A stretch of DNA of 64,000 nucleotides, taken from positions 2,888,501 through 2,952,500 of the forward strand of contig NZ_CACTIA010000005.1 of assembly GCF_902712915.1 (NCBI RefSeq). Reading direction: 5' to 3'. The position numbers and the translations under genes were made by a program. The stretch is from Acidiphilium sp. C61. Lineage in GTDB: Bacteria; Pseudomonadota; Alphaproteobacteria; Acetobacterales; Acetobacteraceae. Numbering within the stretch: position 1 is the first letter of the stretch; each line of letters begins with the position of its first letter. Shown here piece after piece: positions 9,902 to 47,422 of this stretch. Below the pieces are notes generated by a model. It had not been told where the DNA came from and did no database searches. It saw only the letters and a list, made by a program, of their open reading frames with translations.

Positions 9902-11466
9902 AACCCTTCGCCGACCTGCTGGAACGCCTGCTCTACACCACCGGGCGCAACGCCAAGATCGCACTCCTCGCCGATTACTTCGCCCACCGCCCCGATCCCG
10001 AGCGCGGCTACGCGCTCGCCGCTATCGCCGGCGCGCTCGATTTTCCCGGCGCGAAACCCGCCATGCTGCGCGAACTGGCCGCCGCCCGCACCGATCCCGA
10101 GCTGTTCGCCCTTTCCTATGATTTCGTCGGCGACCTCGCCGAGACCATCGCCCTGCTCTGGCCGCCGGCCGCGCGCGCGGCCCCGCCCGGCCTGCCCGAT
10201 CTCGTCGCCGCCCTGCGCGCGGCGCCGCGCGCCGAAATCCCGGCGCTCATCGAAGCCTGGCTCGATGCGAGCGACGTCTCGACCCGCATCGCCCTGATCA
10301 AGCTGATCACCGGCGGCCTGCGCGTCGGCGCCGCACTGCGCCTCGCCAAACTCGCCCTGGCCCGGCAATTCGCCGTCGAGGCCGACGAGATCGAGGAAGT
10401 CTGGCACGGGCTGGAGCCGCCCTACACCGCGCTGTTCGACTGGCTGGAAGGCCGCGCCCCGCGCCCGGCCCCCGGTGCCGCCCCCGTCTTTCGCCCGCCG
10501 ATGCTGGCCCACCCGATCGAGGCGGCGGATCTCGCGACACTCGACTGGTCCGCCCATCGCGCCGAATGGAAATGGGACGGCATCCGCGTGCAGCTCGTCT
10601 CCACCCCCGGCGGCAGCCGGCTCTACTCCCGCGGCGCGGAAGACATCTCCGCCGCCTTCCCCGAAATCGTCGCGGCGATGGATTTCAACGCCGTGCTCGA
10701 TGGCGAGCTGCTGGTCATCCGCGATGGCGCGGTGGCCCCCTTCGCCGATCTCCAGCAGCGCCTCAACCGCAAGAGCGTCCCGGCGAAACTCCGCGCCGCC
10801 TACCCGGTCGGCGTGCGGCTGTATGACATGCTGTTCGAGGGCGAAACCGACCTCCGGGGCCTGCCCTTCGATGCCCGCCGCGCCCGGCTCGAAGCCTGGT
10901 TCGCCAGCACCTCTCCGGCGTCGATGGACCTTTCGGAGCTGATCCCTTTCGCCGCCGCCGCCGATCTCGCCGCCCTGCGCGCCGGCGCCCGCGATGCCGC
11001 GATCGAGGGGCTGATGCTCAAGCGCGCCGACAGCCCCTATCTCGCCGGCCGCCCAAAGGGCCATTGGTGGAAATGGAAGCGCGACCCGCTCAGCCTCGAC
11101 TGCGTGCTGATGTATGCCCAGCGCGGCCACGGCAAGCGCTCCTCCTATTATTCCGACTACACCTTCGGCGTCTGGACGGCGGAGGGCGCGCTGGTGCCGG
11201 TCGGCAAGGCCTATTCCGGCTATACCGATGCCGAGCTGCAACGGCTCGACCGCTGGATCCGCGCCCACACGGTCGCGAGCTACGGCCCGGTGCGCGAGGT
11301 GGAGAAGGCGATCGTGCTGGAAGTCGGGTTCGACGCGGCGCAGCGTTCCACCCGCCACAAATCCGGCATCGCGCTGCGCTTCCCCCGTATCCTGCGGATC
11401 CGCGACGACAAGCCGGCCGCCGAGGCCGACACGCTGGAAACCGCGCGTCTGCTCCTGCCCAGCTAG
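9898..11466 (+). CDS. ATP-dependent DNA ligase (ligase-associated/cisplatin damage response type)
   Basis: 522-residue ATP-dependent DNA ligase. The N-terminal DNA-binding domain is followed by the adenylation site EWKWDGIR with Lys225 as the predicted nucleophile, then ARRARLEAWF, the GLMLKRADSPY motif, and KGHWWKWKRDPLSLDCVLMYA leading into the OB-fold domain that ends the protein. It seals nicks after processing by the helicase and nucleases encoded around it. The ATG overlaps the exonuclease stop (ATGA). An oddity: the TAG stop at 11464-11466 lies inside the CTAG end of a palindromic repeat element, so the element or its target supplies the stop codon. Confidence 0.93.
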   Translation: MKPFADLLERLLYTTGRNAKIALLADYFAHRPDPERGYALAAIAGALDFPGAKPAMLRELAAARTDPELFALSYDFVGDLAETIALLWPPAARAAPPGLPDLVAALRAAPRAEIPALIEAWLDASDVSTRIALIKLITGGLRVGAALRLAKLALARQFAVEADEIEEVWHGLEPPYTALFDWLEGRAPRPAPGAAPVFRPPMLAHPIEAADLATLDWSAHRAEWKWDGIRVQLVSTPGGSRLYSRGAEDISAAFPEIVAAMDFNAVLDGELLVIRDGAVAPFADLQQRLNRKSVPAKLRAAYPVGVRLYDMLFEGETDLRGLPFDARRARLEAWFASTSPASMDLSELIPFAAAADLAALRAGARDAAIEGLMLKRADSPYLAGRPKGHWWKWKRDPLSLDCVLMYAQRGHGKRSSYYSDYTFGVWTAEGALVPVGKAYSGYTDAELQRLDRWIRAHTVASYGPVREVEKAIVLEVGFDAAQRSTRHKSGIALRFPRILRIRDDKPAAEADTLETARLLLPS

Positions 11467-11570
11467 AGCATCATCCGATCAGATGGAATCATCTGATCGG
11501 ATAAAGATGCTCTAATTATCAACAAGATAGAGCATGACATCCGATCCGGATGGATCGGAACATGCTCTAG
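11463..11570 (+). repeat. Palindromic two-hairpin repeat element (MITE-like), copy 1
   Basis: 108-bp element bounded by CTAGAGCAT and ATGCTCTAG. It holds two hairpins: the first has nested arms AGAGCATC/GATGCTCT and ATCCGATCAGATG/CATCTGATCGGAT, the second AGAGCATG/CATGCTCT with CCGATCC/GGATCGG. A 15-base AT-rich linker (AATTATCAACAAGAT) separates them. Eight more copies or partial copies occur in the window. There is no coding capacity, so any mobility would depend on a transposase elsewhere. The left CTAG includes the ligase stop codon. Confidence 0.9.
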
Positions 11571-11578
11571 TCCTGTTT

Positions 11579-11659
11579 AGCCGCCAGCGGCAGCTTTACT
11601 GATCCGTGCCGCCTGCGAGCGGCAGGCTCACTGATCCGTGCCGCCTGCCAGCGGCCCGA
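11579..11659. repeat. Short tandem GCCGCC...TGATCCGT repeats at the purK 3' end
   Basis: Two and a half degenerate units of about 30 bases, each with a small GC hairpin followed by ACTGATCCGT. The last unit lies inside the final codons of purK (encoding LAGGTDQ), and the two others follow its stop, so the purK tail has been duplicated downstream. The hairpins may also serve as a weak transcription stop for purK; no clear T-run is present. Confidence 0.55.
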
Positions 11660-12773
11660 GCGCCGCCCGGATGCCGAATTCGCCGGGCAGCGCGCCGTGC
11701 GGGAACAGCACGTTGACATGGCCGAGCTTGCGCCCCGGCCGCGCGGCGGTCTTGCCGTAATGATGCGGGATCAGCCCTGACGTCGCGACGATCCGCGGCC
11801 AGAGCGCGATATCCTCCGGCCCGACCAGGTTCTTCATCACCGCGTCGGAATGGCGGATCGCCGGCGGCAGGGGCAGCCCGGCGACGGCGCGGATATGCAG
11901 CTCGAACTGGCTGGCCGGGCAGGCATCGATCGTCCAGTGCCCGGAATTATGCGGCCGCGGCGCGATCTCGTTGGCCAGCACCTGGCCATCCCGGCCGATG
12001 AAGAACTCCACCGCGAGCAGCCCTACCAGGCCGATCCGCTCGGCGACGAGGCGCGCCATCTCCCGCGCCGTCTCCCGCAGCGCGGGGTCGAACGGGGCAG
12101 GGGCCAGGGTAAGATCGAGAATATGGTCGCGATGCCGGTTCTCGACCATGTCGAAGGCGCTGACCGTCCCATCCGCCCCGCGCGCGACGACGACCGACCC
12201 CTCCGCCGCGAAATCGACGAAGCCTTCCAGGATCAGCGGCTTCGGATGCAGCAGGCCAAAGGCCATCTCCGCCTCCGCCTCGGTGCGGATCAGCGCCTGG
12301 CCCTTGCCGTCATAGCCGAGCCGCGTGGTCTTGAGCACGGCGGGCAGGCCGATCGCGGCGATGGCGGCGGTCAGCTCCGCCATGGTTTCCACCGGCGCCC
12401 AGGGCGCGGTGCCGATGCCGGCCTCGTTGAGGAAACGCTTCTCCGCGATCCGGTCCTGGCTGATCCGCAGAATCTCCGGCCCCGGCCGCACCGGGCGGCG
12501 ATCGGCCAGCAGGTCGAGCCCCTCGGCCGAGACGTTCTCGAACTCGAAGGTGATCACGTCCACCGCATCGGCGAAGCGCAGCAACGCGGCATTGTCGTCA
12601 TAATCCGCCCGCGTCGTCGCGGCCGCGACCTGCGAGGCCGGCGCGTCGGGTTCGGGGGTGAAGATATGGCAGCGATAGCCGAGCCGAGCCGCCGCCATGG
12701 CGGACATGCGGCCGAGCTGGCCACCGCCGACGATGCCGATCGTGGCGTTGGGGGGAAGCGGAAAACCGGTCAT
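11628..12773 (-). CDS. purK: 5-(carboxyamino)imidazole ribonucleotide synthase
   Basis: ATP-grasp enzyme of 381 residues that carboxylates AIR to N5-CAIR with ATP and bicarbonate in purine synthesis. The N-terminal nucleotide loop [21 protein letters not shown], the grasp segment [36 protein letters not shown] and [18 protein letters not shown] are all present. Its ATG overlaps the purE stop by four bases, which is the usual purE-purK pairing. The product passes directly to PurE. Confidence 0.95.
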
Positions 12774-13264
12774 TCTGTGGGCGGATCCTCGGGCAGGTCG
12801 GGCACGCTGTCGGTCTGGGTGCGGCGCCAGGCGTCGAGCCTGGCCTCGATTTCCTTGTCCGTCACCGCGAGCATCGCGGCGGCGAAGAGGGCGGCGTTGA
12901 TCGCCCCGGCCTTGCCGATCGCGAAGGTAGCGACCGGCACGCCGCCGGGCATCTGCACGATCGAATGCAGGCTGTCCACCCCTTTCAGCGCCGCACTCTC
13001 CACCGGCACGCCGAGCACCGGCACCGGGGTGAGGGCGGCGACCATGCCGGGCAGATGCGCGGCCCCACCGGCCCCGGCGATGATCGCGGCCAGCCCCCGT
13101 CCGCGCGCTTCATGGGCATACTCGACCATCCGCAGCGGCGTGCGATGGGCGGAGACGACGCGCGCCTCGAAGGCGATGCCGAGTGCCTCAAGCGTCTCGG
13201 CGGCATGGCGCATGGTCGGCCAGTCCGACCGGCTGCCCATGATGATCCCGATGCGCGGCGTCAC
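12770..13264 (-). CDS. purE: 5-(carboxyamino)imidazole ribonucleotide mutase
   Basis: 164-residue class I PurE that converts N5-CAIR to CAIR. Signature segments are [20 protein letters not shown] near the N-terminus, [29 protein letters not shown] and [21 protein letters not shown] at 13264 overlaps the stop of the upstream DUF465 gene (GTGA), and the start fits the family N-terminus. It forms a DUF465-purE-purK operon on the minus strand. Confidence 0.95.
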
Positions 13265-13464
13265 GCGATATCGTCCGGGATCAGCCGGCTTTCGAGCCTC
13301 AGGATCTGGTCGCGCAGCAGCAGCTTGCGCTTCTTCAGCCGCTGGATCTGCAACTGGTCGGTCAGCATCTCGTCGCCGAGCCGCGCGATCACCGAGTCGA
13401 GATCCCGGTGTTCGCTGCGCAGGCCGTGCAATTGGCGGAGCAGGTTGTCCTTGTCGGTCAGCAT
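13261..13464 (-). CDS. DUF465 (YdcH-like) small coiled-coil protein
   Basis: 67-residue protein with the DUF465 pattern: [19 protein letters not shown], then a basic stretch [15 protein letters not shown] and a terminal helix. These proteins are short alpha-helical hairpins of unknown function, common in alphaproteobacteria. It is the first gene of the purE-purK operon, its stop overlapping the purE GTG start. A second DUF465 gene lies divergently about 210 bases away. Confidence 0.85.
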
Positions 13465-13673
13465 GTTTCGCTTCTAGCACAGCCGCGCGAGGCTGGCCTA
13501 TCCCGGTTTTGCCCTCCCCGTGCCCCGCCGCCTTCCGCATGCTCGCCGGCGCGGGCGCGAATATAAAAGATTGATGACAACCGGAACGCGCAGGACTAGA
13601 CTTTTGGTCAGGCGCCCGGCCGGGCACCGCCCGGCTTGCGCCACAACGATCCACACTCGGAAAGGAGTCGAGG

Positions 13674-13841
13674 ATGAGCCTGCAAGCGAGACTGGAATCC
13701 CTGAAGCAACGTCACGCCGGCCTTGAATCCCGCATCAACGACGAGGACCGCCGGCCGCGACCGGATGATGAAAATCTCGCCCGGCTCAAACTGGAAAAAC
13801 TTCGCCTGAAGGAAGAAATCGAGCGCATCCGCGTCAGCTGA
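13674..13841 (+). CDS. DUF465 (YdcH-like) small protein
   Basis: 55-residue protein with the DUF465 core: [19 protein letters not shown], then [19 protein letters not shown]. It is highly charged and predicted to be fully helical. A good ribosome binding site (AAAGGAG) precedes the ATG. It is divergent from the other DUF465 gene at 13464, and the roughly 210 bp between them must hold both promoters. A run of hairpins follows its stop. Function is unknown. Confidence 0.85.
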
Positions 13842-13853
13842 TCGGTGCGCCCC

Positions 13854-13963
13854 GGCACGAGACATCGTGCCGGAAAATCTGTCCGCACGAGACATCGTGC
13901 TGGAAAACATAGCGGCACGAGACATCGTGCCGGAAAAATTTATCGGCACGCGGTTCCGTGCCG
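13854..13963 (+). repeat. Tandem array of hairpin units, period 30 bp
   Basis: Three near-identical units start at 13854, 13884 and 13914. Each contains GGCACGA GACA TCGTGCC (a 7-bp stem with a 4-base loop), followed by GGAAAA and a variable 6-7 base spacer. A fourth, shorter hairpin GGCACG CGGTT CCGTGCC ends the array at 13963. It begins 13 bases after the DUF465 stop. It could be a multi-hairpin mRNA stabiliser, a terminator or a protein-binding array. It is not a CRISPR: the repeat is too short and the spacers are only about 12 bp. Confidence 0.8.
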
Positions 13964-14024
13964 TTTGACCCGCCCGGGCCGGATCACCGGTCCGGGCGCC
14001 TGATTTCCTGCGGTTGACCCGCTC

Positions 14025-14603
14025 TCAGGCCGCCTCGTCGCTCGAATCCGTCATCGGCTGCGGCACTTCCTCGCCTTCGCGCTCGATCCGCGCATTCGCC
14101 GCCCCCACCACGTCGTTTAGGTCGGACTGCTTGCACAGGCCGAGGATCACCGGGTCGCGCGGCTTGATATTGGCGCTGTTCCAGTGCGACTTGTCGCGCA
14201 CCTTCTGGATCGTGTCCTTGGTGGTGCCGAGCAGCTTGACGATCTGCGCGTCCTGCACGTGCGGATAGTTGCGCAGCATGAACGCGATCGCATCCGGCCG
14301 GTCGATCCGCTTGGCCACCGGGGTATAGCGCGCCCCCTTGCTGCGCCGCCCGCCGGGGATGGCGGCCTGCAACATTTTCAGCCGCGCCTTGGGATCGGCC
14401 TCGCAGCGGCGGATTTCATCGGCGGTGGTCTGCTTGTTGGCGACCGGATCGTAGCCGACGATCCCCTGCGCCACCTCGCCATCGGCGATCGCCTGCACCT
14501 CGAGCGGATGCATGCCGCAGAAATCCGCGATCTGCTCGAAGGTCAAGGCGGTCTTCTCGATCAGCCACACCGCGGTGGCCTTCGGCATCAGGGGAAGCGT
14601 CAT
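14025..14603 (-). CDS. DUF1013 family transcriptional regulator (TrcR-like)
   Basis: 192-residue protein almost restricted to alphaproteobacteria. The Caulobacter member (TrcR) travels with RNA polymerase and affects cell-cycle gene expression. Here the N-terminus carries the helix-turn-helix-like segment [20 protein letters not shown], and a second such segment is [24 protein letters not shown]. Three consecutive ATG codons (14609, 14606, 14603) are possible starts; only 14603 has proper spacing to GAGG. It is a single gene facing moaA, with an AT-containing upstream region around 14650-14690. Confidence 0.85.
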
Positions 14604-14806
14604 CATCATACCTCAGAGAGAGAGCGGCGCGCGCGGCCCTTCGGCGGCGGCGAACGCGCGGGCGTATATATTGCAGCAACATATGGTGCAGAGATCTTGT
14701 CCCGGTCAAGCCGCATGGCACGGAAATGCCGCAATTCCCCCCTGCGCCCGCCGCTCCAGCGGTTTGCGCCGCCGCGGGTCTTGCCTTTGGTCGCGCGAGC
14801 GTAAAC

Positions 14807-15802
14807 ATGACGCCCATGATCGACCCGTTCGGCCGCGCCATCACCTATCTCCGCATTTCGGTCACCGACCGCTGCGATTTCCGCTGCGTCTACTGCATGG
14901 CGGAGGACATGACCTTCCTGCCCAAGGCGGACCTGCTCTCGCTCGAGGAGCTGGAGCGGCTGGCCGGCGCCTTCGTCGATCTCGGCGTGCGCAAGCTGCG
15001 CCTGACCGGCGGCGAGCCGCTGGTCCGCCGTGGCGTGATGACGCTGCTCAACCGCCTCGGACAGCGTCTCGGCCACGGGCTCGACGAACTGACCCTGACC
15101 ACCAATGGCAGCCAGCTCGGCCGATTCGCCGAAGACCTCGCCGCCGCCGGGGTGAAGCGGGTGAACGTCTCGATCGACACGCTCGATGCCGAAAAATTCC
15201 AGTCCATCACCCGCTGGGGCCGGCTGCCCCAGGTGATCGAGGGCGTGATGGCGGCGAAGGCGGCGGGGCTCAAGGTCAAGATCAACGCCGTGGCGCTCAG
15301 GGGCGTGAACGAGGACGAGTTCGACACGATGCTGGACTGGTGCGGCCAGCACGGCTTCGATTTCTGCCTGATCGAAACGATGCCGCTCGGCGAGGTCGAC
15401 CAGGACCGGACCGATCAATACCTGCCGCTCTCCACCGTCCGCCAGCGCCTCGCCGCGCGCTGGACCCTGACGCCGACCGACTACGTCACCGGCGGCCCCG
15501 CCCGGTATTTCGACGTCGCCGAGACCGGCACGCGGCTCGGCTTCATCACCCCGCTCACGCATAATTTCTGCGAAGGCTGCAACCGGGTGCGGCTGACCTG
15601 CACCGGCACGCTCTATATGTGCCTCGGCCAGGACGACGCGGCGGATCTGCGCGCCGTCCTGCGCGGCTCGGACGATGACGCCGTGCTGCGCCAGGCGATC
15701 CGCGATGCGATCGCCCGCAAGCCGAAAGGCCATGATTTCGTGATCGACCGCGCCGGCCGCGCCCCCGCCGTCGCCCGCCACATGAGCGTGACCGGCGGGT
15801 AG
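14807..15802 (+). CDS. moaA: GTP 3',8-cyclase, molybdenum cofactor synthesis
   Basis: Radical SAM enzyme of 331 residues that converts GTP to the cyclic intermediate of molybdopterin synthesis with MoaC. The N-terminal 4Fe-4S motif is CDFRCVYC (Cys23, Cys27, Cys30), the SAM glycine motif TGGEPL follows, and the C-terminal cluster is built by [14 protein letters not shown]. It ends with the family's functional Gly-Gly (SVTGG). ATG at 14807 was chosen; ATG at 14816 is an alternative, and an upstream extension to 14726 is Ala/Pro-rich and unlikely. No other moa gene is adjacent. Confidence 0.95.
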
Positions 15803-16128
15803 GGGATCCGCCGCCGCCCGCCAGACCGGATGTGGCGTTCGCCGATAGCTGCAATCAGAATTTGCAACCGTGACATCCGATCGGCCGACATCTCCCGTAT
15901 GCCTCATGACGGCAAACGCCGGCTTATGCACCGATTTGGTAGGTCCACGTCACCAAATCAAAATTTGACAAAGGTAAACATCTTGGATACGATTAGCGAA
16001 TAATCGAGAATAAATATCAATAATAAAATACAACCTAAATACCTGTTTTTTGAGGGGCGCGGCAAGTCGGTCATCCCGGTCTTGCCATCAAAGTCAAAAA
16101 CCAAATCATTGTCTCCGGGCGCTGAGGA
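15803..16128. other. Intergenic region with AT-rich stretch
   Basis: No gene is seen here. The second half (about 15950-16045) is strikingly AT-rich compared with its surroundings and probably contains the promoter of the diguanylate cyclase gene. GAGG sits directly before the ATG at 16129. Confidence 0.5.
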
Positions 16129-17238
16129 ATGGATCTTTCCTACATCTATCTGTTCTTCGACGGTATGACCGTGCTGGCCGGCATTCTTCTTGTCGTGACC
16201 GGCTTCCTTTCCGGCGCCGAAATGTTGAAATGGTGGGGTAGCGCCTATTTCATCGGCGCGGCCGGGCTCGGTGCCTTCATTGCCGGCAGGTTCGGCGCCC
16301 ATTGGCTTGCCCACGGGCTGGCGCCCGGTCTCCTGCTGATGGCCTACGGGATGATGTGGCTGGGCGCGCGCCGCCTCGCCGGCCGGTCCAGCCCGATGCT
16401 GCTGGCCTTGCTGCCGGGCCTCGCCTGGTGGGCCATCGGCGCCACGCTCCCCTTCGCCGCCAAACCCTGGCTCTATCTCGTCGCGCAGACGCCGCTGACC
16501 CTGTTGATGATCGCGCTGCTGCTGGTCGAGGTCGTGCGGATTCCCGCCCCCGCGGCCGCGCGCTACCCGCTGGCGGCCGCCCTCGTCGTCCATGGCGTCT
16601 TCATCGTCGTTCGCGCCGCCGACCTGCTCCAGCACGGCACGCCCGCCGCGCTGCGGCTCTGGCTCGTCATCTCGGCCGGCGAGGGCATCATCTTCGTGTT
16701 CTGCGATGCGTTGTGCGCCAGCCATCTGGTGCGGATGCTGCGCGAGCGCCTGCTCGACAGCGCCGCCCATACCGACTTCCTCACCGGCGTGCTCAACCGC
16801 CGTGGCTTCACCATCCAGGCCGAGCGCCGCTTGCGCGCCACCTCCTGCATGCTGCTGGTGCTCGACATCGACGGCTTCAAGCGCATCAACGACACGCTCG
16901 GCCATGCCGAGGGCGACCGCCTGCTGCGCGAACTGGGCCGGATCTGCATGGAAAGCGTGCGCGCCGGCGATGTGGTCGGCCGGCTCGGCGGCGACGAATT
17001 CGCCATCCTGATCGATGGCGGCACCGGCGAAACCGCCTCCTCCATTGCCACCCGGATCCGCCAGGCCTTCGCCCAGACCCTCACGGCGCACGGGCTGGAA
17101 GTCGGGGTCAGCATCGGGATCGACGGCGCGAAACCCGGCAATACGCTGGATGACCTGCTGCGCCAGGCCGACATGCGGCTCTACCGCGCCAAGGGCAGCG
17201 CGCCGCGGGTCCGCAAGCTCGTCCTCGGCGCCGGCTGA
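16129..17238 (+). CDS. Membrane-bound GGDEF-domain diguanylate cyclase
   Basis: 369-residue protein. About seven hydrophobic segments fill residues 1-200 (starting YIYLFFDGMTVLAGILLVV). A GGDEF domain follows: DFLTGVLNRRGF opens it, LDIDGFKRINDTLGHAEGD carries the metal-binding Asp and substrate residues, and RLGGDEFAIL is the intact active site. The protein should make cyclic di-GMP from GTP in response to a membrane signal. No EAL domain is present. No RxxD inhibitory site is obvious just before GGDEF. It stands alone between moaA and an insertion element. Confidence 0.9.
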   Translation: MDLSYIYLFFDGMTVLAGILLVVTGFLSGAEMLKWWGSAYFIGAAGLGAFIAGRFGAHWLAHGLAPGLLLMAYGMMWLGARRLAGRSSPMLLALLPGLAWWAIGATLPFAAKPWLYLVAQTPLTLLMIALLLVEVVRIPAPAAARYPLAAALVVHGVFIVVRAADLLQHGTPAALRLWLVISAGEGIIFVFCDALCASHLVRMLRERLLDSAAHTDFLTGVLNRRGFTIQAERRLRATSCMLLVLDIDGFKRINDTLGHAEGDRLLRELGRICMESVRAGDVVGRLGGDEFAILIDGGTGETASSIATRIRQAFAQTLTAHGLEVGVSIGIDGAKPGNTLDDLLRQADMRLYRAKGSAPRVRKLVLGAG

Positions 17239-17262
17239 ACCCGCACCGCCTGCGCTCTCGCG

Positions 17263-17373
17263 CTAGAGCATCTTAATCCGATCGGATGGAACTATCTGAT
17301 CGGATAAAGATGCTCTAATTATCAACAAGATAGAGCACGACATCCGATCCTGATGGATCGGAACGTGCTCTAG
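17263..17373 (+). repeat. Palindromic two-hairpin repeat element, copy 2
   Basis: 111-bp copy with CTAG at both ends, the same AATTATCAACAAGAT linker as copy 1 and only a few changes in the arms. Its right CTAG (17370-17373) is repeated at 18193-18196 on the far side of the IS5 element, so the transposon inserted exactly at the end of this copy. Confidence 0.9.
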
Positions 17374-18192
17374 AGTTTGTGGGGATTTGGGATTCCCATT
17401 TGGGTGTTGCTGTGATTCAAGCTGTGAATGGAACGATTTGTACTGACGGACGCCCAATGGGCGAGGATGGAACCGCATTGTCTTGGCAAGGCGAGTGACC
17501 CTGGCCGCAGCGGGCGGGACAATCGGCTGTTTCTGGAAGCGGTACTTTGGATTGTCCGCACTGGCAGTCCGTGGCGTGATCTGCCTTCGATGTTTGGCAA
17601 CTGGAGCACGGCCTACCGCCGGTTCAACGACTGGCGCCGCGCTGATGTTTTCAAACGGATTTTCGACGCGGTATCTGATGAACCCGATATGGAATACGCC
17701 ATGGTCGACGCCACGATCGTCAAGGTCCACCGTCACGGCCAGGGCGCAAAAGGGGGACTCAAAGCCAGGCCATAGGCTGTTCCAAAGGTGGCATGACAAC
17801 CAAAATCCTGGCGCTGACGGATGCCCTGGGCAACCTTGTGCGCTTTCGTCTCATGCCGGGCAATCGCCATGACGGCATCGAGGTCCCGCCACTGATCGAC
17901 AACGTCGAATTCGGTGGATTGATCGCAGACAAGGCATTCGACAGCAACGCTCTGGTCGCAGAACTCAACGAAAGAGGCGCCCGGGTCGTCATTTCCCAGC
18001 ATCCGGCCCGGGCACTGAAGCTGAAAATCGACCGCGAAATCTACAAATGGCGTCATCTGGTCGAGAATTTCTTCTGCAAGCTCAAAGAGTTCAAACGCAT
18101 CGCCCTGCGCGCCTGCAAAACAGACCAGAGCTTCCAGGCAATGATCTACCTCGCCGCAGCCGTCATCAACTCACGATGAATCCCTACAAACC
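17374..18192 (+). mobile_element. IS5-family insertion sequence (IS427-like group)
   Basis: 819-bp element. Imperfect terminal inverted repeats AGTTTGTGGGGATT and GGTTTGTAGGGATT are at the ends. The duplicated target CTAG is at 17370-17373 and 18193-18196. The transposase is spread over two frames, as in this IS group. The element looks complete and recently inserted, since the duplication is exact. It separates the diguanylate cyclase gene from the Tad-like genes. Confidence 0.9.
17428..18179 (+). CDS. IS5-family DDE transposase, two frames joined by -1 frameshift
   Basis: The first frame (17428-17775) opens MERFVLTDAQWARMEPH and contains the first catalytic Asp in MVDATIVKVHRHGQGAKGG. The second frame continues in the -1 phase from the slippery run AAAAGGGGG near 17749-17757, giving GCSKGGMTTKILALTDALGN, then LIADKAFDSN with the second Asp and RHLVENFFCKLKEFKRIAL with the Glu. 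Joined, it is about 250 residues, normal for the group. Separate translation of the two parts would not give a transposase. Programmed frameshifting is established for related elements and is inferred here. Confidence 0.88.
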
Positions 18193-18201
18193 CTAGCGCA
18201 G

Positions 18202-18990
18202 TCAGTTGACCGCGCGCTTCGCCCCTGCAGCCGGCCGTGCCGCAAGCCGCGCCATCCGCGTCTCCACGGCGTCCGCCTCCGCCGCCGGCATCGTCGCGTC
18301 GAGCACCTGCCGCGCCGCGCCGTGATGGCCGGAAAGGGCGAGGGCGGCGGCATAATCCGCCCGCTCCGGCGCCGAAATCGGCCCGCCTTGCGCAAGCGGC
18401 GCGATGATCGCGGCGCCGGCGCCGGCATTGCCGCCAAGCGCCAGGGCAAGGCCGAGATTCGCCCGCGCCGCCCGGAAGTTGGGGCGCAGCGCCAGCGCCC
18501 GGCGGAAGGCCGGCGCCGCCGCGGCGAAGGCGCCGCGCTGGGACAGTGCCACTCCGAGATCGTTGAACGCCACAGCATTGTGCGGGTCGTCCCGCGTCGC
18601 CCGCCGGAACGCGGTCACCGCCCCGCGTCCGCCGCCGCGCAACGCGCAGCGGCCAAGCCCGATCTCCGCCCGCGCATCATGCGGTGCGGCGCCGAGCAGC
18701 GCGGTGTAATCGCGCGTCGCCGTCTGGCAGTCGCCGAGCAGATAGGCGGCATCTCCATGGATCAGCCGCGCCCGCACATTGCCCGGGTCGAGCTTCAGCA
18801 CCGCATCGGCGACATGCAGCGCGAGATCCGGCCGGTTCCCCGCCAGCGCCGTCTCCGCCACGTTCAGCGTGTTGGCGCCGAGCGCCGGGCGTGCGGCGCT
18901 GGTCCGCGCCGGCCCAGCGCAGCCGGCGAGCGCCGCCGCGACAATGCCGAGCATCGCCCCTGGCAGCCACCGTGTCCTCCGCCCGGTCAT
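18202..18990 (-). CDS. TPR-repeat lipoprotein, Flp pilus assembly TadD-like
   Basis: 262-residue protein with a lipoprotein signal (LGIVAAALAGCAGP, lipid Cys near residue 24). Tetratricopeptide repeats follow, for example RPDLALHVADAVLKLDPGN, NAVAFNDLGVALSQRGAF and FRRALALRPNFRAARANLG. TadD proteins are outer-membrane-linked pilotin-like factors of the Tad/Flp pilus. The ATG overlaps the stop of the upstream CpaD-like gene (ATGA), and that gene overlaps the secretin gene. The IS5 element begins only ten bases after the stop on this side. Confidence 0.7.
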   Translation of the reverse strand: MTGRRTRWLPGAMLGIVAAALAGCAGPARTSAARPALGANTLNVAETALAGNRPDLALHVADAVLKLDPGNVRARLIHGDAAYLLGDCQTATRDYTALLGAAPHDARAEIGLGRCALRGGGRGAVTAFRRATRDDPHNAVAFNDLGVALSQRGAFAAAAPAFRRALALRPNFRAARANLGLALALGGNAGAGAAIIAPLAQGGPISAPERADYAAALALSGHHGAARQVLDATMPAAEADAVETRMARLAARPAAGAKRAVN

Positions 18991-28825: not shown

Positions 28826-28933
28826 CTAGAGCATCATCCGATCGGATGGAATCATCTGATCGGATGAAGATGCTCGGTTTATCAATATGATAGAGCACTA
28901 CATCCGATCCAAAAGGATCGGAAAGTGCTCTAA
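28826..28933 (+). repeat. Palindromic two-hairpin repeat element, copy 3
   Basis: 108-bp copy starting five bases after the stop of the split outer-membrane gene. It opens CTAGAGCATCATCCGATC and ends GTGCTCTAA, with the linker variant TTTATCAATATGAT. It lies between the stop codon and that gene's terminator and is in opposite orientation to copy 4. Confidence 0.9.
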
Positions 28934-29642: not shown

Positions 29643-29750
29643 CTAGAGCACTTTCCGATCCGATTGGATCGGATGTAGTGCTCTATCATATTGATAAGTC
29701 GAGCATCTTTATCCGATCAGATGATTCCATCTGATCGGATGATGCTCTAG
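29643..29750 (-). repeat. Palindromic two-hairpin repeat element, copy 4
   Basis: 108-bp copy in reverse orientation relative to copies 1-3, with CTAG at both ends and linker ATATTGATAAG. With copy 3 it forms an inverted pair around the DUF4142 gene, a unit of 925 bp. Confidence 0.9.
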
Positions 29751-37118: not shown

Positions 37119-37138
37119 ATGGTGCTCTGGGCTGCGGT

Positions 37139-37462: not shown

Positions 37463-37718
37463 AAATAGCCCTCCTGTATGAGGCGTATTAAATAGTTCTT
37501 CACTTTCTTGTCAAACAAAAGATTGTGAATTGACAATGTTTTTAACGATAAAACCTCACCGTGCGGCCCGGTCACGATCGTTCCATTTCCGGATGTATGG
37601 CGAGGCGGGGAAAGGTGTCCAGAATCCAGTTTTAGAGCACGTTCCGATCCATCAGGATCGGATGATGCTCTGGCGATTCGCGCCCCGGCACGCACAACAA
37701 GAATTGGCGGCGCAAAAT
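37463..37718. other. Intergenic stretch with no gene
   Basis: It holds the AT-rich upstream region of the small membrane protein gene and a half copy of the palindromic repeat. No other coding or RNA feature is seen before the tRNA. Confidence 0.5.
37632..37673 (-). repeat. Half copy of the palindromic repeat (single hairpin), copy 5
   Basis: One hairpin only: AGAGCACGTTCCGATCC, then ATCAGGATCGGATGATGCTCT-like arm. It corresponds to hairpin 2 of the full element and lies 46 bp from the tRNA-Arg 3' end. Confidence 0.75.
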
Positions 37719-38287: not shown

Positions 38288-38335
38288 CTCGGACGATTGC
38301 TACCTACAGCGCCAGCAAGGTGCGAGGCAAGCGCC

Positions 38336-38821: not shown

Positions 38822-38840
38822 CGTCCTGCTCCTCATTGCA

Positions 38841-39935: not shown

Positions 39936-39980
39936 CCGCCTTGCCTACCCATCACGCCCTGCCGTTGCTATAGGCTGGGC

Positions 39981-41561
<1,581 letters not shown>

Positions 41562-41563
41562 TT

Positions 41564-41614
41564 CTGCTCCCCCCCCCCCCCCCCCGCTGCTGCGGCGGGG
41601 GAGGGGGGGCAGCT
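41564..41614. repeat. C17 homopolymer tract facing a G-rich arm
   Basis: Seventeen consecutive C at 41569-41585 are followed after about ten bases by GGCGGGGGAGGGGGGGCAG. The two arms can pair as a long GC hairpin, and the opposite strand could form a G-quadruplex. It follows the prfC stop directly and marks the start of the AT-rich accessory segment. The exact run length could be a sequencing artefact. Confidence 0.8.
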
Positions 41615-41867
41615 CTGTTATAAAAATTGCAACGCAGTCGTCGGTTCTAACAATATACCACTGTTTGCTGTAGGTGCGGCAAGTTCACCTTATGTCGTCA
41701 TAATTTTCTTGATTGCATATGATGTGCAAACTAAAAAAAAACATTAAGACGAAATAAGCATATATGATGATTTATTGAATTAATTTATATTTAGATTTTT
41801 ATTTATAAATTGATTAGATTCGATCATAAATTTGAATGTTTGTGGAGCATCGTACTGAATAGAGGAG
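41615..41867. other. AT-rich intergenic region
   Basis: No gene is found. The composition switches abruptly to AT-rich, with many short A and T runs, and it probably carries the promoter of the HNH gene. Confidence 0.5.
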
Positions 41868-42818
41868 ATGAGTTGTTTGGTAGTAAATCGGTACAATCTA
41901 CCCCGAAGTATCCCTGCAGAAATTAAGCGCCAGATACGACAAAGAGATGGATTTGGCTGTATTGTCTGCGGTAACGCCTATTATCAATTTGATCATATTG
42001 GTACGGAATTCAGAGATGCAGTGATACACGATCCATTGCAGATCATACTACTTTGCGGCAAATGTCATGACAGAAAGACTCGTGGAGTTTTATCAACCGA
42101 AACCCTATTATTACATGCTAAATCGCCTCGCTGCAAGCAGATTGATTTTTCTCGGGGAGAACTAGACATTGGTACAGCCCATCCAGAGATCGTTCTTGGT
42201 ACGATCACAGCGAAAAATGTTAGATCCCTTCTAACGATTGATGAGGAAGAAGTATTTTCTATTTTGCCACCCCAAAAACCCGGTGAAGCATTCCGTATAA
42301 ATGCATCGCTTTATAATCAAAATGGTGACCAAACGTTAAAGATTTTCGAAAATGAATTTCAAATATCAGTGTCAAACTGGGATGCTGAAATAATAGGTCA
42401 AAAATTAAAAATTAGGAGTCAATTAGGGAAGTTTAATCTTGTTCTCAGGGTCGATCCTCCAAAAAGATTAATTATTGAGCAACTAGATATGGTATATAAA
42501 AATTTTAATATAGAATGTAGAGAGGGACGAGATACAATTATAAAAAATAGAGAGACGTTATTAAAAACTAGCGGAGCAGAGCTTGATGGATGTGATATAG
42601 CTATTCTTGTGAAGGGCTTAGATCTGTCAATTGGTGTAGGTGGAGGATCTGTACACATAACAAAGATGAATTTTTCAATATCTAAAAGGGAACGTCCGCA
42701 AGCATCCAGCGTCTACCCAAATTTGTTCCAAAACGGTGCTCCAAAACTTCGGCGAAACGAGAAATGTTTCTGTGGTACTGGAAAAAAATATAAGTATTGC
42801 CACGGTCGTCTGAATTAA
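41868..42818 (+). CDS. HNH nuclease-like protein with C-terminal SEC-C zinc motif
   Basis: 316-residue protein not recognised as a named family. The N-terminal HNH-type zinc/nuclease module has Cys31-Cys34, His43 in FDHIG, and Cys63-Cys66-His67 in CGKCHDRKTRG. The middle (about 90-285) is rich in predicted beta strands with no known motif. The end is a SEC-C zinc motif, KCFCGTGKKYKYCHGR (Cys300, Cys302, Cys311, His312). Codon use is AT-rich, unlike the rest of the window, indicating transfer. GAGGAG touches the ATG; a TTG at 41874 would have better spacing. A defence or mobile-element role is possible but unproven. Confidence 0.75.
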   Translation: MSCLVVNRYNLPRSIPAEIKRQIRQRDGFGCIVCGNAYYQFDHIGTEFRDAVIHDPLQIILLCGKCHDRKTRGVLSTETLLLHAKSPRCKQIDFSRGELDIGTAHPEIVLGTITAKNVRSLLTIDEEEVFSILPPQKPGEAFRINASLYNQNGDQTLKIFENEFQISVSNWDAEIIGQKLKIRSQLGKFNLVLRVDPPKRLIIEQLDMVYKNFNIECREGRDTIIKNRETLLKTSGAELDGCDIAILVKGLDLSIGVGGGSVHITKMNFSISKRERPQASSVYPNLFQNGAPKLRRNEKCFCGTGKKYKYCHGRLN

Positions 42819-43346
42819 GTTTTGAATTACGCCTGATATCTTTGTTTCCAGAAAATTTCTCTATTCTGAATCTGACCTCACGGACGAAATTACAGCCTGA
42901 CCGAAAAAATAGTTGAGTAATTTCAGTAGGCGGTGAATTGGTTCGTTCACGAATACAAACGGATATAACATAGCTTGGACTGAGATTCCTCATCAACGAT
43001 AACTACACTTGTTCTGCCACTCAAAATAACTAAAAATAAGAGCCCCAGACATCGATCGCTGATCGAACGCGACTTCGATCTCTCCCCACGGAAATGTCGC
43101 CGGCAGCTTCCGTTGCGGCTTTGTCTCCATCGCCGCTCATACCCAAGCACACCAATGCCCACCCCGCCGCTTCAGGAATGGCCGAAATCCTACTTGCGTT
43201 GTCGAGGAGGCACTTTCATCACGTCTGTCTCATGGCCGCGATCGCTGATACAGGAAAGTAACAAAAATTTGTATATTTAGAATTGGAGACATATTTTAAT
43301 CTTAGCAACGTAATCCTAATATATAGGTGAGCGGCATCAGGTTTCT
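42819..43346. other. Intergenic region without a recognised gene
   Basis: 528 bases grading from AT-rich to normal composition. Short open frames on both strands have no ribosome binding site and no recognisable motif. About 43060-43230 has coding-like GC content and may be a decayed gene fragment, but none could be identified. Confidence 0.4.
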
Positions 43347-44093
43347 GTGTTCTATTCGGACAAAACCTGTTCAGTCGGTCAGCCGTTGAGTATTTTATCT
43401 TTTCTAAACAGGTCTGATCTGATCGCCCTGTTCGGATACACAGCTGCGGGTGCGGTCTTCGCGACCTTCTGCATGCGGACCATGCGCCCGTTACGTTCGG
43501 TCGCGCTGCTCAGCAACATATTGTTCATCAGCTACGGCGCGCTGGGCCGCCTCTACCCAGTGCTGATCCTGCACGCCTGCCTGCTGCCGATGAATGCGTG
43601 GCGCTTGCTGCAAGTCTTGCGGCTCCAGCGTGCCTCCATCTCCGACAACGCCACCTTCGACGTCGCCATCCTCCGCCCGTACACAATGCGCCGCGACCTG
43701 CCTGCGGGGGCCACGCTCTTTCACCGTGGCGACCCGGCGAAGGAAGTGTTTTGGGTCGATACCGGCGAACTGGTGCTGCCGGACCTCGGCGTGGCTCTCG
43801 GACCGGGGAGCATCGTGGGCGAGCTTGGGGTTCTCTCGCGCCACGGCCAACACACCGCCACCGTGGCGGCGCGCACCGACTGCTCCCTGCTTGCGCTCTC
43901 CGCCACCAGGATGCAGAGCCTTTATTTCCAGCACCCTGGCTTCGCGCTTCACCTGCTGAATATGCTCGCCGACCGCCTGATCGAGCATCTCCCGCCCCCC
44001 TGCCAGTCCGGTTCGGGAACGCCTGAGCCAGGCTCCCTCGCGCCGCCCGTAGCGCTGACCGCCCAGGCGCCGAACTCATGTGGCAGCTTGTGA
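43347..44093 (+). CDS. Membrane protein with cyclic-nucleotide-binding-like domain
   Basis: 248-residue protein. Residues 20-95 hold about three hydrophobic helices (ALFGYTAAGAVFATFCM, SVALLSNILFISYGALG, and the next). A cyclic nucleotide-binding fold follows: RRDLPAGATLFHRGDPAKEV, then FWVDTGELVLPDLGVALGPG and SIVGELGVLSRHGQHTATVA. It has no DNA-binding domain, so it is not a Crp-type regulator. The start is GTG at 43347 without a strong ribosome binding site. The 3' end is Pro/Ser-rich. Ligand and role are unknown. Confidence 0.7.
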   Translation: MFYSDKTCSVGQPLSILSFLNRSDLIALFGYTAAGAVFATFCMRTMRPLRSVALLSNILFISYGALGRLYPVLILHACLLPMNAWRLLQVLRLQRASISDNATFDVAILRPYTMRRDLPAGATLFHRGDPAKEVFWVDTGELVLPDLGVALGPGSIVGELGVLSRHGQHTATVAARTDCSLLALSATRMQSLYFQHPGFALHLLNMLADRLIEHLPPPCQSGSGTPEPGSLAPPVALTAQAPNSCGSL

Positions 44094-44218
44094 CAGCCCG
44101 ACATTTGGTGGGGTCGATGTAAAGAGTGTCTGTCAAAGCTGGAGCCGCAATCAATCTCGGCTTAGCTTCAGGCCTGATCCGCAACCGCACACCCCGCAGC
44201 CTTGCCGCTCAAAACAAC

Positions 44219-44323
44219 GAGAGCATCATCAAACCGGATGGATTACCTGATCGGATAAAGATGCGCTGTTTATCAATATGATAGAGCACTACATCCGATC
44301 CATCAGCATCAGAAACGGTTTTA
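44219..44323 (+). repeat. Degenerate palindromic repeat element, copy 6
   Basis: Recognisable by GAGAGCATCATC, CTGATCGGATAAAGATG, the linker TTTATCAATATGATAGAGCA and CATCCGATCC, but arms are mutated and the CTAG ends are lost. It ends three bases before the ATG of the GNAT gene, so it supplies that gene's whole upstream region. Confidence 0.8.
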
Positions 44324-44326
44324 GCC

Positions 44327-44869
44327 ATGGACATTATCGCCACCCCGCGCCTCGTTTTGCGAACCCCGCTTTCGGGCGACCTTCAACATCTGCACGACCA
44401 TGTGCTGTCAGACGCAGACGTGATGAAGATGGCCTTTGCGGGCGCCTCCATGTCTTTTGAACAGTCGATCTCATTCTTCGAAGCCAATTTCGACCATGCG
44501 CATAGTGGCAGGAAGTTAGGCATTCTTGTTGAGCGCGACACTGCGGCGTTCGTCGGATTTGCAGGTTTGCTCCCGTGCAACGTCCTGAACCAGCCGGACT
44601 ATGAATGCGGGTTTGTGCTCAGGCGTGCTGTCTGGGGGCGCGGATACGCGACCGAGATTGGACGTGGTCAAATCGAGTATGGTCTGGAGACACTTCAATT
44701 AAGCCGCCTCCTTGCTCAAGCCTCGCCTGAAAACGAGGGATCGATTTCCGTTCTGAAAAAACTGGGCATGGAATTCAAAACCTCGATCCAAAGCGCAGAG
44801 AGAGGGGAGCGGCATGTCTATGCCATCGATCGTCTCCCCCCGCCGCGGCGGGAGATGTTGCTCCGTTAG
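44327..44869 (+). CDS. GNAT family N-acetyltransferase (RimJ/RimL-like)
   Basis: 180-residue acetyltransferase. It opens IIATPRLVLRTPLSGDLQHL, the usual RimJ-like start. The acetyl-CoA loop region is FVLRRAVWGRGYATEIGRGQ (R/Q-x-x-G-x-G/A), followed by RLLAQASPENEGSISVLKKL. It would transfer an acetyl group to an amine of a protein N-terminus or small molecule. No good ribosome binding site is visible, because the degenerate repeat abuts the ATG. Confidence 0.85.
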   Translation: MDIIATPRLVLRTPLSGDLQHLHDHVLSDADVMKMAFAGASMSFEQSISFFEANFDHAHSGRKLGILVERDTAAFVGFAGLLPCNVLNQPDYECGFVLRRAVWGRGYATEIGRGQIEYGLETLQLSRLLAQASPENEGSISVLKKLGMEFKTSIQSAERGERHVYAIDRLPPPRREMLLR

Positions 44870-44875
44870 CCGACA

Positions 44876-44919
44876 TGATAGAGCGCACCATCCGATCCGG
44901 CGGGATCGGGACCTGCTCC
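44876..44919 (+). repeat. Half copy of the palindromic repeat, copy 7
   Basis: Second hairpin only: GATAGAGCGCACCATCCGATCC, loop and GGGATCGGGACCTGCTC arms. It sits between the GNAT stop and the start of the next gene. Confidence 0.7.
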
Positions 44920-44957
44920 CGCAGCGCCTCAAAGAAATTCACCGAAAGGCCGCCTCG

Positions 44958-46301
44958 ATGCCCCGCAATACCATCACATGGCAAACCACTTGCCTGGCGG
45001 TTAGTGTCGCCGTGGTGTCTCTGCTGACATGCTTTGGTCTGATGCATCCCTGGATTACGGGTGACACTGCAAGCTGGCTCGCCCCTTGCTCGGGGATCGC
45101 GTGCTTTGCCGGTGCACGCTTTCCGCTGTATCGCATCGTCTATCTGGTCATCACGTTTGACGGCCGGTTTCCCGCCCTGCTGCCTTGGGTGCAGGTCTCG
45201 CTATTCCTCGTCGCCGGGTTTCAACTGGCGTCCTCATCCCGTCGCGCCGGCGCATCGCCCGCCGCCGCCGCCGCGATTGCTCTAGCTTTTCCCCTCAGCA
45301 ATATGCTGCTGATCTGGGGACGCGCCGAAATTCCCGAAATCCTTGCCCGCGCGGCTCTCCTCGCCGCCCTCGCGGCCTCGCTCGACGCCGCCATCGCCCC
45401 TGCCTCGCGCCTCGCCTCCCTCCGCGCCGGTATCTTCGGGAGTGCGGCCTATCTCCTCGACCCCGCGCAACTGCCCTTCATCGTCGTTCTCCCCATACTC
45501 ATCGCGTGGCTCCAGCAACGCAGCAACACATCCCGCGCGCACTGGCTTCAGCCCACCCGCACGGCGGCGTTACTTGCGCTGCCCTTTCTTGTCATTGCCA
45601 GCGTCCGTCTCGCAACGCTGGATAGTTTCAACATTGTTTCGTTCGGCGGCTACGAGATCTCCGGCCTCGCCGCTGAAATCCTCACTCCGGCCACCGAAGC
45701 GGAATTGCCCCCCAGGCTGCGCCCGATCGGAGCCGAAATCCTGAGCCGCAAATCCGAACTCATCCGCAGTCGCCAGATCCCGGCAACGCCGCTGAATTCT
45801 ACCGGTCACGCCTCTCTCGCCTCCGAGGCGATCGGTTATTTCGATATCTTCGCCCGCTATTATGACGTCATGCTCCGCGAGACCGTCCTTCCCCTCCGCC
45901 AGCCCCAGCAGAGCTGGGTGGCTTTCAATCACGAGATGCAGACATTTTCCTTCGCCGTCATCCGGCATGAAAAAGTGATCTATGTCCTCTGGATTGCCGG
46001 TGCGCTCGCGCGGCTGTTCGGACGCATGACGATGCTGAACCTCCCCTTCGTGCTGGCTGCCGCCGCACTTCTGCTGATCCTCATCATGCGCCGGCCAGTC
46101 ACCCACCCCGCACCGCAACCGCGCGACACATGTCTCCTCTTCGGACTGACCGCCGCGTACACGATCGGCACCGGCATCCTCGGTTGCCTCGTCGCTTTCC
46201 CCGCCCAACGATATATCGACGGTGCGGGCCTCCTCATTACCGCCTGGCCTCTTTATGCCTGCTTTCATCTGACCGGACTTTTTGCCCCGGCTCGTACCTG
46301 A
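44958..46301 (+). CDS. Multi-pass membrane protein of unknown function
   Basis: 447-residue protein with about nine to ten hydrophobic helices, for example LAVSVAVVSLLTCFGLM, LPWVQVSLFLVAGFQLA, LLALPFLVIASVRLA, LPFVLAAAALLLILIM and the last near the C-terminus. It has a large extra-membrane loop at about 230-350. The layout, with an early ITGDTASWL loop, resembles polytopic glycosyltransferase-like proteins, but no catalytic motif could be identified. ATG at 44958 was chosen over an upstream frame that overlaps the GNAT gene. Confidence 0.65.
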   Translation: MPRNTITWQTTCLAVSVAVVSLLTCFGLMHPWITGDTASWLAPCSGIACFAGARFPLYRIVYLVITFDGRFPALLPWVQVSLFLVAGFQLASSSRRAGASPAAAAAIALAFPLSNMLLIWGRAEIPEILARAALLAALAASLDAAIAPASRLASLRAGIFGSAAYLLDPAQLPFIVVLPILIAWLQQRSNTSRAHWLQPTRTAALLALPFLVIASVRLATLDSFNIVSFGGYEISGLAAEILTPATEAELPPRLRPIGAEILSRKSELIRSRQIPATPLNSTGHASLASEAIGYFDIFARYYDVMLRETVLPLRQPQQSWVAFNHEMQTFSFAVIRHEKVIYVLWIAGALARLFGRMTMLNLPFVLAAAALLLILIMRRPVTHPAPQPRDTCLLFGLTAAYTIGTGILGCLVAFPAQRYIDGAGLLITAWPLYACFHLTGLFAPART

Positions 46302-46327
46302 TGCCGCGTCTCGCCTCATCTTGTTGT

Positions 46328-46435
46328 CCAGACCATCGTCCAATCAGATGGAATCATCTGATCGGATAAAGACGCTGGGTTTATCAACAGGATAGAGCAC
46401 GACATCCAATCCGAAAGAATCGGAAACTGCTCTGG
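46328..46435 (+). repeat. Palindromic two-hairpin repeat element, copy 8
   Basis: 108 bp with CCAGA/TCTGG ends in place of CTAGA/TCTAG. The inner sequence CAATCAGATGGAATCATCTG and the linker TTTATCAACAGGAT are well kept. Confidence 0.85.
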
Positions 46436-46613
46436 GCTCTATTCCCGTTTCCGCCACGCGCGCCGCAGTCCATCGCGTCGCCCGCCCACCGCAAATCCTT
46501 AGCGACCTAATCATTCATAGAAAAACTGTATAAGTTTGTTAATAATATTAAAATATATACACGATTCCAATATAAAAACGCTACAAAAACCAAAGAATGA
46601 AACGGAGTCGGTC

Positions 46614-47150
46614 GTGCAAGATACAATAAAATGGCTATTTTTTGGTTTTTTTATCGGAATAATTATTACGCTTCCAATCATCGTTTTCGTCGAATATGCT
46701 TATTTTGGAAATCTGTATTCTTTCACTCATTATCGTTTCAACGGCAGAAAGAGTATAGCCTATTTTTATCAGTCGCTGGACTTGATGTATATGGGAACCG
46801 GACAATTTATACATACAATAGATTATATAAATCACAGATCGAAACACCTTCATATCATTGTCACGCCCATAAGCATAAATGATTACAAGGTAAAAATCGC
46901 AAACGTGTCCCAAAACGCCTGCCGCCTCATTGTCGACATGTCGTACAGTTCAAACATAGTAAAATTCATATATATCAATGATACGGCAGTCGGCCTGTTT
47001 CACTTCCAGCCGATCAGCGGCCACTTCCTTCTCGTCGACGGCAAGGCCGTCTCCCCCGGCCAGGACGCCTACGCCCGGCGCCTGTGCGCCAGAACCGCCG
47101 GGCGCGTGCAGATCGGCATGGAAATATCGGCCCACCCGTCCAACACCTGA
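46614..47150 (+). CDS. Small membrane-anchored protein, AT-rich 5' part
   Basis: 178-residue protein with one N-terminal membrane helix (FFGFFIGIIITLPIIVFVEY) and a soluble remainder with no recognised domain. GGAG lies six bases before GTG 46614, which was chosen over a TTG at 46536. The first two thirds use AT-rich codons, while the last 50 codons are GC-rich like the host, so the gene may be a chimera or an acquired gene under change. Function is unknown. Confidence 0.6.
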   Translation: MQDTIKWLFFGFFIGIIITLPIIVFVEYAYFGNLYSFTHYRFNGRKSIAYFYQSLDLMYMGTGQFIHTIDYINHRSKHLHIIVTPISINDYKVKIANVSQNACRLIVDMSYSSNIVKFIYINDTAVGLFHFQPISGHFLLVDGKAVSPGQDAYARRLCARTAGRVQIGMEISAHPSNT

Positions 47151-47314
47151 GCCGCCAGAATCTAACCCTGAAAGCCATCCCGGATATTTGTCGCTCATCT
47201 CAACAATCATAAACAAAACAATAAAAACCTGAAAACGCTATAATATTGGACGTTTTTTCCCATCTCCCGCCATTCTCAGCCCGCACCGGCTAGGGTAAAA
47301 CCTCTCGCGGTGGG

Positions 47315-47422
47315 TTAGAGCATCACCCGGTCGGCCGAGCTCATCTGACCGGATCAGCATGCTCGCGATATCAATGAAACAGGGCGCGACACCCGCTCCA
47401 AAAGGATCGGCACGTGCTCCAG
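47315..47422 (+). repeat. Degenerate palindromic repeat element, copy 9
   Basis: Diverged but aligned end to end: TTAGAGCATCACCCGGTCGG, CATCTGACCGGATCAGCATG, linker ATATCAATGAAACAG, then CAAAAGGATCGGCACGTGCTC. It ends five bases before the next gene's ATG. Confidence 0.75.

Follow-up and report, generated by a model that had tools for sequence, protein, structure and literature searches.

Double-hairpin repeats in Acidiphilium: probable IS630-type MITEs with counterparts across Alphaproteobacteria

Introduction

Bacterial miniature inverted-repeat transposable elements (MITEs) of the IS630/Tc1-mariner type, e.g. Correia/NEMIS, RUP and nezha, carry one pair of terminal inverted repeats. RIME1 and RIME2, the Rhizobium-specific intergenic mosaic elements, were reportedly described by Osteras et al. 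in 1995 as repeated, intergenic units of about 108 bp with two large palindromes. To our knowledge, rhizobial palindromic intergenic repeats have lacked an agreed mover. Here, we analyzed a stretch of 64,000 nucleotides from Acidiphilium sp. C61 (contig NZ_CACTIA010000005.1, positions 2,888,501 to 2,952,500; hereafter the window), in which a non-coding double-hairpin repeat occurs at nine places. Judging from its insertion sites and outer ends, this repeat is probably a non-autonomous transposon (MITE) of the IS630/Tc1-mariner type, moved in trans by a transposase of an IS630 subgroup.

With IS630-derived MITEs the element shares the duplication of TA, a short non-coding unit and ends in common with an IS630-family element, whereas it differs from them in keeping two complete palindromes and a fixed linker across many families. 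Its likeness to the RIMEs lies in two large palindromes, a length of about 108 bp and an intergenic position. RIMEs are among the annotated repeats of the Sinorhizobium meliloti 1021 chromosome, according to PMC2573895. Repetitive extragenic palindromes (REPs) and REPINs consist of units of 20-40 bp tagged with GTAG or CGTC, according to PMC3733652. Like these, the element is a high-copy extragenic palindrome of the often paired kind, but it is a 104-bp unit with TA duplication, and no Y1 transposase was found in copy-rich genomes.

Results

Element structure and insertion sites

The mobile unit reads GAGCA...TGCTC over about 104 bp and consists of two palindromes joined by a 15-base linker. 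Counted with the TA at either end, a full copy spans about 106 bp instead of the roughly 108 bp of the first-pass annotation; hairpin 1 takes up about 51 nt of this and hairpin 2 42 nt, with 13-15 unpaired linker nt between them. The ends have the form N-TA-GAGC with a variable N, and neither a GTAG nor a CGTC tag is present. The element (about 105 bp) is non-coding, lacks a transposase of its own and occurs in many copies. The earlier notion of a mobile non-coding family moving in trans accords with this lack of coding capacity, with further copies in relatives and with the existence of insertion sequences (ISs) with similar ends.

Single-strand DNA folding was calculated for two window copies, one of them on both strands, and two relatives, each of which gave two strong hairpins. 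The z-scores were -10.9 for the copy at 11463 and -8.9 for that at 28826, and no shuffle folded as well. When the linker was set at 15 nt in 19 elements, the GAGC at the 3' arm of hairpin 1 was exact in 12 and one letter off in seven. Outer stem positions 5-7 pair in 54/57 and 55/57 cells of these elements, compared to shuffle means of 42.7 and 38.4; none of 2000 shuffles paired as well, in a test that is inflated by the relatedness of the sequences.

Insertion duplicates TA. When 12 copies in G001, the nearest of the genomes of the genus that were searched, were compared with the orthologous sites of another, G008, three sites were readable as empty in G008 (L016, with a small flank difference, L021 and L023), one copy was common to both (L019) and two sites had no anchor (L003 and L008). 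The filled sequence T-TA-GAGC..GCTC-TA-ACCCG in G001 corresponds to the empty CTTAACCCG in G008, and C-CA-GAGC..GCTC-TA-TTTC corresponds to CTATTTC. These TTAA (L021) and CTAT (L023) sites separate the models, i.e. the outer bases belong to the host and TA alone is doubled. CTAG, originally suspected as the duplicated target, is thereby ruled out in that role and is instead the commonest target. The CTAG sites are consistent with duplication of TA. For the window copy at 11463, G001 and G008 both have a clean empty site, with CCCGG-CTAG-TCC versus the filled CCCAG-CTAG..CTAG-TCC, and the one CTAG of the empty site holds the stop codon of a ligase gene. In G001 the element is also absent from the 29643 site, which reads GATCTGGTTCA, from the 28826 site, where 19 other bases precede CTGATGCGGG, and from the 37633 site, where the sequence is too diverged to read.

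The insertions are mostly at Y-TA-R sites. Among 23 copies, 19 have an intact left TA, preceded by C in ten, T in six and A in three, and 20 have an intact right TA, followed by G in 12, A in six and T in two. Pyrimidines are found before the left TA in 16/19 (background 39%, p 7e-5) and purines after the right TA in 18/20 (background 42%, p 1e-5). That CTAG and the TAG of stop codons are common landing places is plausibly due to the scarcity of TA in a 67% GC genome and to the stop codon being kept upon insertion. CTAG is itself scarce in the window, with 21 occurrences against 56 expected from a Markov estimate, part of the 21 lying inside elements.

Tandem arrays of the element (A) are present in G001. 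At three places in contig C6 of G008, two A copies enclose another double-hairpin repeat (B) of about 115 bp, which has the ends GTGTCC..GGACAC and shares a TA with its neighbor on either side:

near 3326823-3327152 (L254): B between two A copies
near 2518202-2518531 (L255): B between two A copies
near 2087969-2088298 (L256): B between two A copies

The tandem A copies and the A-TA-B-TA-A composites indicate that the TA at an element end is itself a landing site. IS elements also sit at an element-end TA, in copy 2 of the window and in the plasmid locus L131. Near the copy 2 site, G001 has an A-B pair that lies no more than about 30 bp from the right flank as aligned. Another observation concerns L071:10979-11084 and L086:4979-5105, where double-hairpin elements of different sequence and length occupy the same TA in related genomes; the 400-bp upstream flanks are 95% identical, and the site reflects either an independent insertion or a replacement.

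Copies within the window

The copies and the IS associated with one of them are distributed as follows:

11463..11570, plus strand: copy 1, full double hairpin, left TA 11464-11465 and right TA 11568-11569; model match
11464-11514, 11515-11527 and 11528-11569: hairpin 1, unpaired linker and hairpin 2 of copy 1
17263..17373, plus strand: copy 2, full double hairpin, hairpin 1 longer by 3 bp; model match
17373..18193, plus strand: IS5-like IS within the CTAG at the right of copy 2; DDE_Tnp_1 match, frame 17793-18179
28826..28933, plus strand: copy 3, full double hairpin, flanks C-TA..TA-A; absent in G001
29643..29750, minus strand: copy 4, full double hairpin in opposite orientation, flanks C-TA..TA-G; absent in G001
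37633..37672, minus strand: 40-bp single hairpin with both outer ends kept; 26-bit model match 37632-37716
44218..44324, plus strand: degenerate double hairpin; model match
44873..44919, plus strand: remnant with linker end and hairpin 2; 36-bit model match 44825-44921
46328..46435, plus strand: copy 5, near full length, one letter changed in each terminal TA
47315..47422, plus strand: degenerate double hairpin; model match

All nine places of the first-pass annotation were recovered at their coordinates, as seven double hairpins and two partial copies. Of the double hairpins, five have nearly their full length, namely 11463, 17263, 28826, 29643 (minus strand) and 46328, and those at 44218 and 47315 are degenerate. 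The motif CTAGAGCA occurs eight times in the window compared to 0.55 expected, and none of 100 shuffles reached eight. A covariance model run with filters off returned 16 rows up to an E of 1, each overlapping one of the nine places; the matches along the full model were, from 132 down to 72 bits, 11463, 29643 (minus strand), 28826, 17263, 46328, 47315 and 44218. As seven of the nine places are in the training set, this search confirms the set and is no independent test. Identity to the consensus ranges from 99% to 70% among 30 aligned copies, in keeping with the mixture of near-identical and decayed copies that had been described. An Rfam scan of the window at the gathering cut-off gave two tRNAs and nothing else.

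Two places had been called single hairpins. The one at 37632 does consist of one hairpin, yet it keeps both outer ends, while that at 44876 is hairpin 2 together with the linker end. When copy 1 is given a deletion between its two GATCGGATG repeats, one in each hairpin, the product is 37/40 identical to the copy at 37633, as expected if this single hairpin arose by loss of the interior of a full copy. The idea of a preferred landing zone between 28 and 47.5 kb is weak and not established, since a scan gave p = 0.052 for seven of the nine copies in 18.6 kb; a second scan gave p = 0.044 for four copies in 3.2 kb, with both window sizes picked after seeing the data.

The TAG of copy 1 is the stop codon of a DNA ligase frame (9898-11466), the protein of which is 95% identical to that of the metagenome bin L051 and 81% identical to those of A. 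iwatense and Acidiphilium sp. PA. To judge from the frames called, the five best copies in the window include four that closely follow the end of a gene, and three of the four lie between frames that converge. Together with stems that change sequence across genera yet stay paired to the extent given above, this could speak for a repeat kept for a function in cis, such as transcription end, mRNA 3' end or protein binding, and spread by recombination rather than transposition. We consider this improbable, given the transposon behavior of the element: it has entered orthologous sites precisely and doubled the TA there, it forms tandem arrays as well as A-TA-B-TA-A composites, and its model matches range from 0 to 123 within one genus. 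A cis function and transposition are not mutually exclusive.

IS630 as the candidate mover

Duplication of TA points to IS630/Tc1-mariner or to some IS5 groups. PF13358 gave 33 matches in eight of the nine genomes of the genus searched, and in six out of 25 PF13358 loci (L196, L197, L198, L201, L206 and L208) a GAGC next to TA follows the domain at a distance of 99-123 bp. L197 in G008 is an IS of 1,052 bp with two frames, of which the DDE frame scores above the IS630 model cut-off. When the best TA-flanked inverted repeat was taken without asking for GAGC, GAGC was found in seven of eight named IS630 loci, 986-1,053 bp in length, and GAGT in that of Methylocystis.

At the level of sequence, the outer ends of the element, but not its inner hairpin ends, resemble the termini of IS630-family ISs with GAGC ends. 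When the outer end of hairpin 2 was compared with 448 TAGAGC sites, three G008 IS630 ends ranked 1, 2 and joint 4, with scores of 15, 14 and 12 of 21 (448-site mean 5.8, sd 2.2; the sites were filtered against hairpins, with some element copies remaining and the IS ends themselves included). The outer end of hairpin 1 scored 13, 11 and 13 of 21 against the same ends, a score of 13 or more being reached by 10/448 sites, while the inner ends scored 0-1 (hairpin 2) and 6-7 (hairpin 1).

The IS630 of the same host (genus or close kin) was the best or joint best of 16 IS ends for all seven element ends with a known host, two of these being the same sequence and tied with two foreign ends. In Acidiphilium, the end of hairpin 1 has its top score with the G008 IS (12/16), and for that of hairpin 2 two foreign ends reach the same score of 12 as this IS. 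ISRm2011-2 comes out on top at both ends of a repeat on the S. meliloti plasmid pSymB (12 and 11 of 16) and at both ends of an Ensifer adhaerens element (10 and 11 of 16). A same-host comparison attempted for Roseomonas mucosa yielded no element, either in the 150 of 184 kb of its plasmid that were covered or in L083. Across 249 genomes of the family of G001, presumably the Acetobacteraceae, element and IS630 were both present in 85, the element only in 80, IS630 only in 29 and neither in 55, a modest co-occurrence (odds ratio 2.0, p = 0.015).

We infer that IS630 is the best candidate mover. A transposase of the GAGC-end IS630 subgroup, supplied by another locus of the genome or by an IS that has meanwhile disappeared, would bind the outer ends of the element and move the ~104-bp unit in trans by cut and paste; insertion would take place at TA, mostly as Y-TA-R, with duplication of the TA.

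Several points weigh against this scenario. Six of the 12 G001/G008 sites are without the element but messy (L004, L014, L020, L025, L029 and L030), and TA and CTAG duplication are discriminated at two sites only. The similarity between element and IS630 ends amounts to 11-12 of 16 in Acidiphilium and S. meliloti and is not identity. The earlier proposal to look for an IS with matching ends was of value, and ISs with similar ends do exist. In L197, the HTH frame is slightly closer to the IS481 model than to the IS630 model, both below cut-off. Furthermore, 80 of 165 element-bearing genomes have no IS630 match at an E of 1e-15, and 29 genomes have IS630 and no element. Neither an IS630 nor a DDE_Tnp_1 match was found in G001, the genome richest in element matches within the genus; as G001 is a draft of 70 contigs, assembly loss and real loss of IS630 are both possible. 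Half-element pairs in G001 contig C12 were considered as a parent IS and rejected, as they flank an ordinary gene, while those in C3 and C23 showed no transposase-like frame on inspection, no profile search having been made there.

A transposase of the IS5 family is an unlikely mover, even though IS427-like IS5 transposases also target YTAR/TA, G008 has 54 DDE_Tnp_1 matches and the IS5-like element in the right-hand CTAG of copy 2, with ends GAGTTTGTGGGG, has CTAG on both sides (17370-17373 and 18193-18196). By eye, its end agrees with the end of hairpin 2 in 7/16 letters, compared to 12/16 for IS630, and G001 is without a DDE_Tnp_1 match. Among the 30 of the 54 G008 loci that were scanned, four had TA-flanked inverted-repeat ends and none of these started with GAGC; at L292, stray TAGAGC and GCTCTA motifs lie outside its own ends.

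Least credible, in spite of paired hairpins, a fixed spacer and CTAG-like ends that recall REPINs and of a Y1 enzyme in the genus (the plasmid copy L131:5001-5107 of A. multivorum JZ-6 adjoins an IS200/IS605 with tnpA ~65 bp away), are REP/REPIN-type doublets moved by a RAYT or IS200/IS605 (Y1) transposase that recognizes a hairpin and a short tag and duplicates nothing, since a fixed 5' tag is at odds with the TA duplication and the variable bases on either side of the unit, and PF01797 had no match in eight of the nine genomes of the genus searched, including the element-bearing G001, G008, G002 and G010, its only match being in G007, a genome without the element (control searches were positive in 5/14 genomes). 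A RAYT mover was rejected for the copy-rich genomes on this search. In L131:5001-5300, the IS200/IS605 appears to start a few bases past the plasmid copy, and CTAG ends may be its target.

Distribution in Alphaproteobacteria

A covariance model from 30 copies (R1), with matches counted at E<=1e-3 and 150 candidates scored per genome, was applied to 13 genomes of the genus. G001 had 123 matches, G008 58, G002 16, G010 13 and G011 two, while the other eight had none; in some cases a single place was counted once on each strand. One plasmid record had a copy (A. multivorum JZ-6), and no match was found for the element in the phage collection searched or for a long exact pattern of it in genome contigs.

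A second model from ten diverse copies (R2) matched in 165 out of 249 Acetobacteraceae genomes, representing 74/102 genera, these counts being lower bounds since 15 candidates were scored per genome. At the class level, 44 out of 385 genomes had matches, belonging to the Acetobacteraceae and 30 other families. All of the 23 matching genomes among 299 phylum-level draws carry the label nearest or same class, the share of other classes among the 299 not being stated. Among 81 named loci, L071, L086 and L077 matched, and L089 of Humitalea rosea did so weakly. In 50 loci chosen as best matches, the left end is TAGAGC in 30 and TAGATC in six, the right end read inward is TAGAGC in 40, and the elements measure 102-106, 115 or 136-139 nt, except for one of 73. 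The two-hairpin layout is hence not restricted to Rhizobium and kin, being found in the Acidiphilium window and in the 165 Acetobacteraceae genomes.

A plasmid search with five class- or family-level elements left four without a match. A 115-bp member matched 85 plasmid records, 80 of them from Sinorhizobium, at 526 places. On S. meliloti pSymB, the 115-bp repeat is found at ten places and folds into two hairpins; its two ends, each read inward, are TAGATCAC and TAGAGCGGGATG, with CAA in the linker, and the copy L361 has the same layout as the element. One position of the repeat on pSymB is 1025545-1025659. Full-length R2 matches scored 48.9 bits for the pSymB copy and 53.3 bits for the Ensifer adhaerens copy. 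Five other 50-kb stretches of pSymB gave weak R2 matches only (E 0.11-0.99) and no direct pattern match. Two of the weak pSymB matches, L358:30918-31020 and L359:28830-28945, have a common palindrome around TTTGCGCG..CTGAT..AGACGCGCGGCGCTG, which is perhaps another S. meliloti repeat family.

We infer from the general features of RIMEs that the pSymB repeat is probably of the RIME type. Its stem sequences differ from those of the Acidiphilium element.

Discussion

The two-hairpin layout probably marks a class-wide superfamily of IS630-type MITEs, and the rhizobial RIME repeats probably belong within it. A more far-reaching possibility, which we put forward tentatively, is that RIMEs, the Acetobacteraceae repeats and the other matches form one ancient, class-wide MITE superfamily driven by IS630, in which the two palindromes and the 15-base linker would have been selected for mobility. 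The outer ends would then track the IS630 of each host while the stems change compensatorily, and the folded, perhaps single-stranded, form may be part of the transposition or survival cycle and not merely a consequence of having inverted ends.

Both IS630 MITEs and RIMEs with two palindromes have been described before; the apparent novelty lies in bringing them together in a class-wide family, in the TA evidence and in the link between outer ends and IS630. A literature search gave no paper linking RIME with IS630 and none naming Acidiphilium among the matches listed, most subscription papers being outside its coverage. A word search of a MITE review (PMC10969869) found neither IS630 nor RIME.

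These repeats are also met by annotators and assemblers, as exemplified by contigs C7 and C64 of G001, which begin inside tandem copies. Since both hairpins are retained, it may be asked why they persist in a DDE transposon. If the superfamily is real, one testable agent, the IS630 transposase, would account for the rhizobial repeats as well as for a large hidden repeat load in Alphaproteobacteria.

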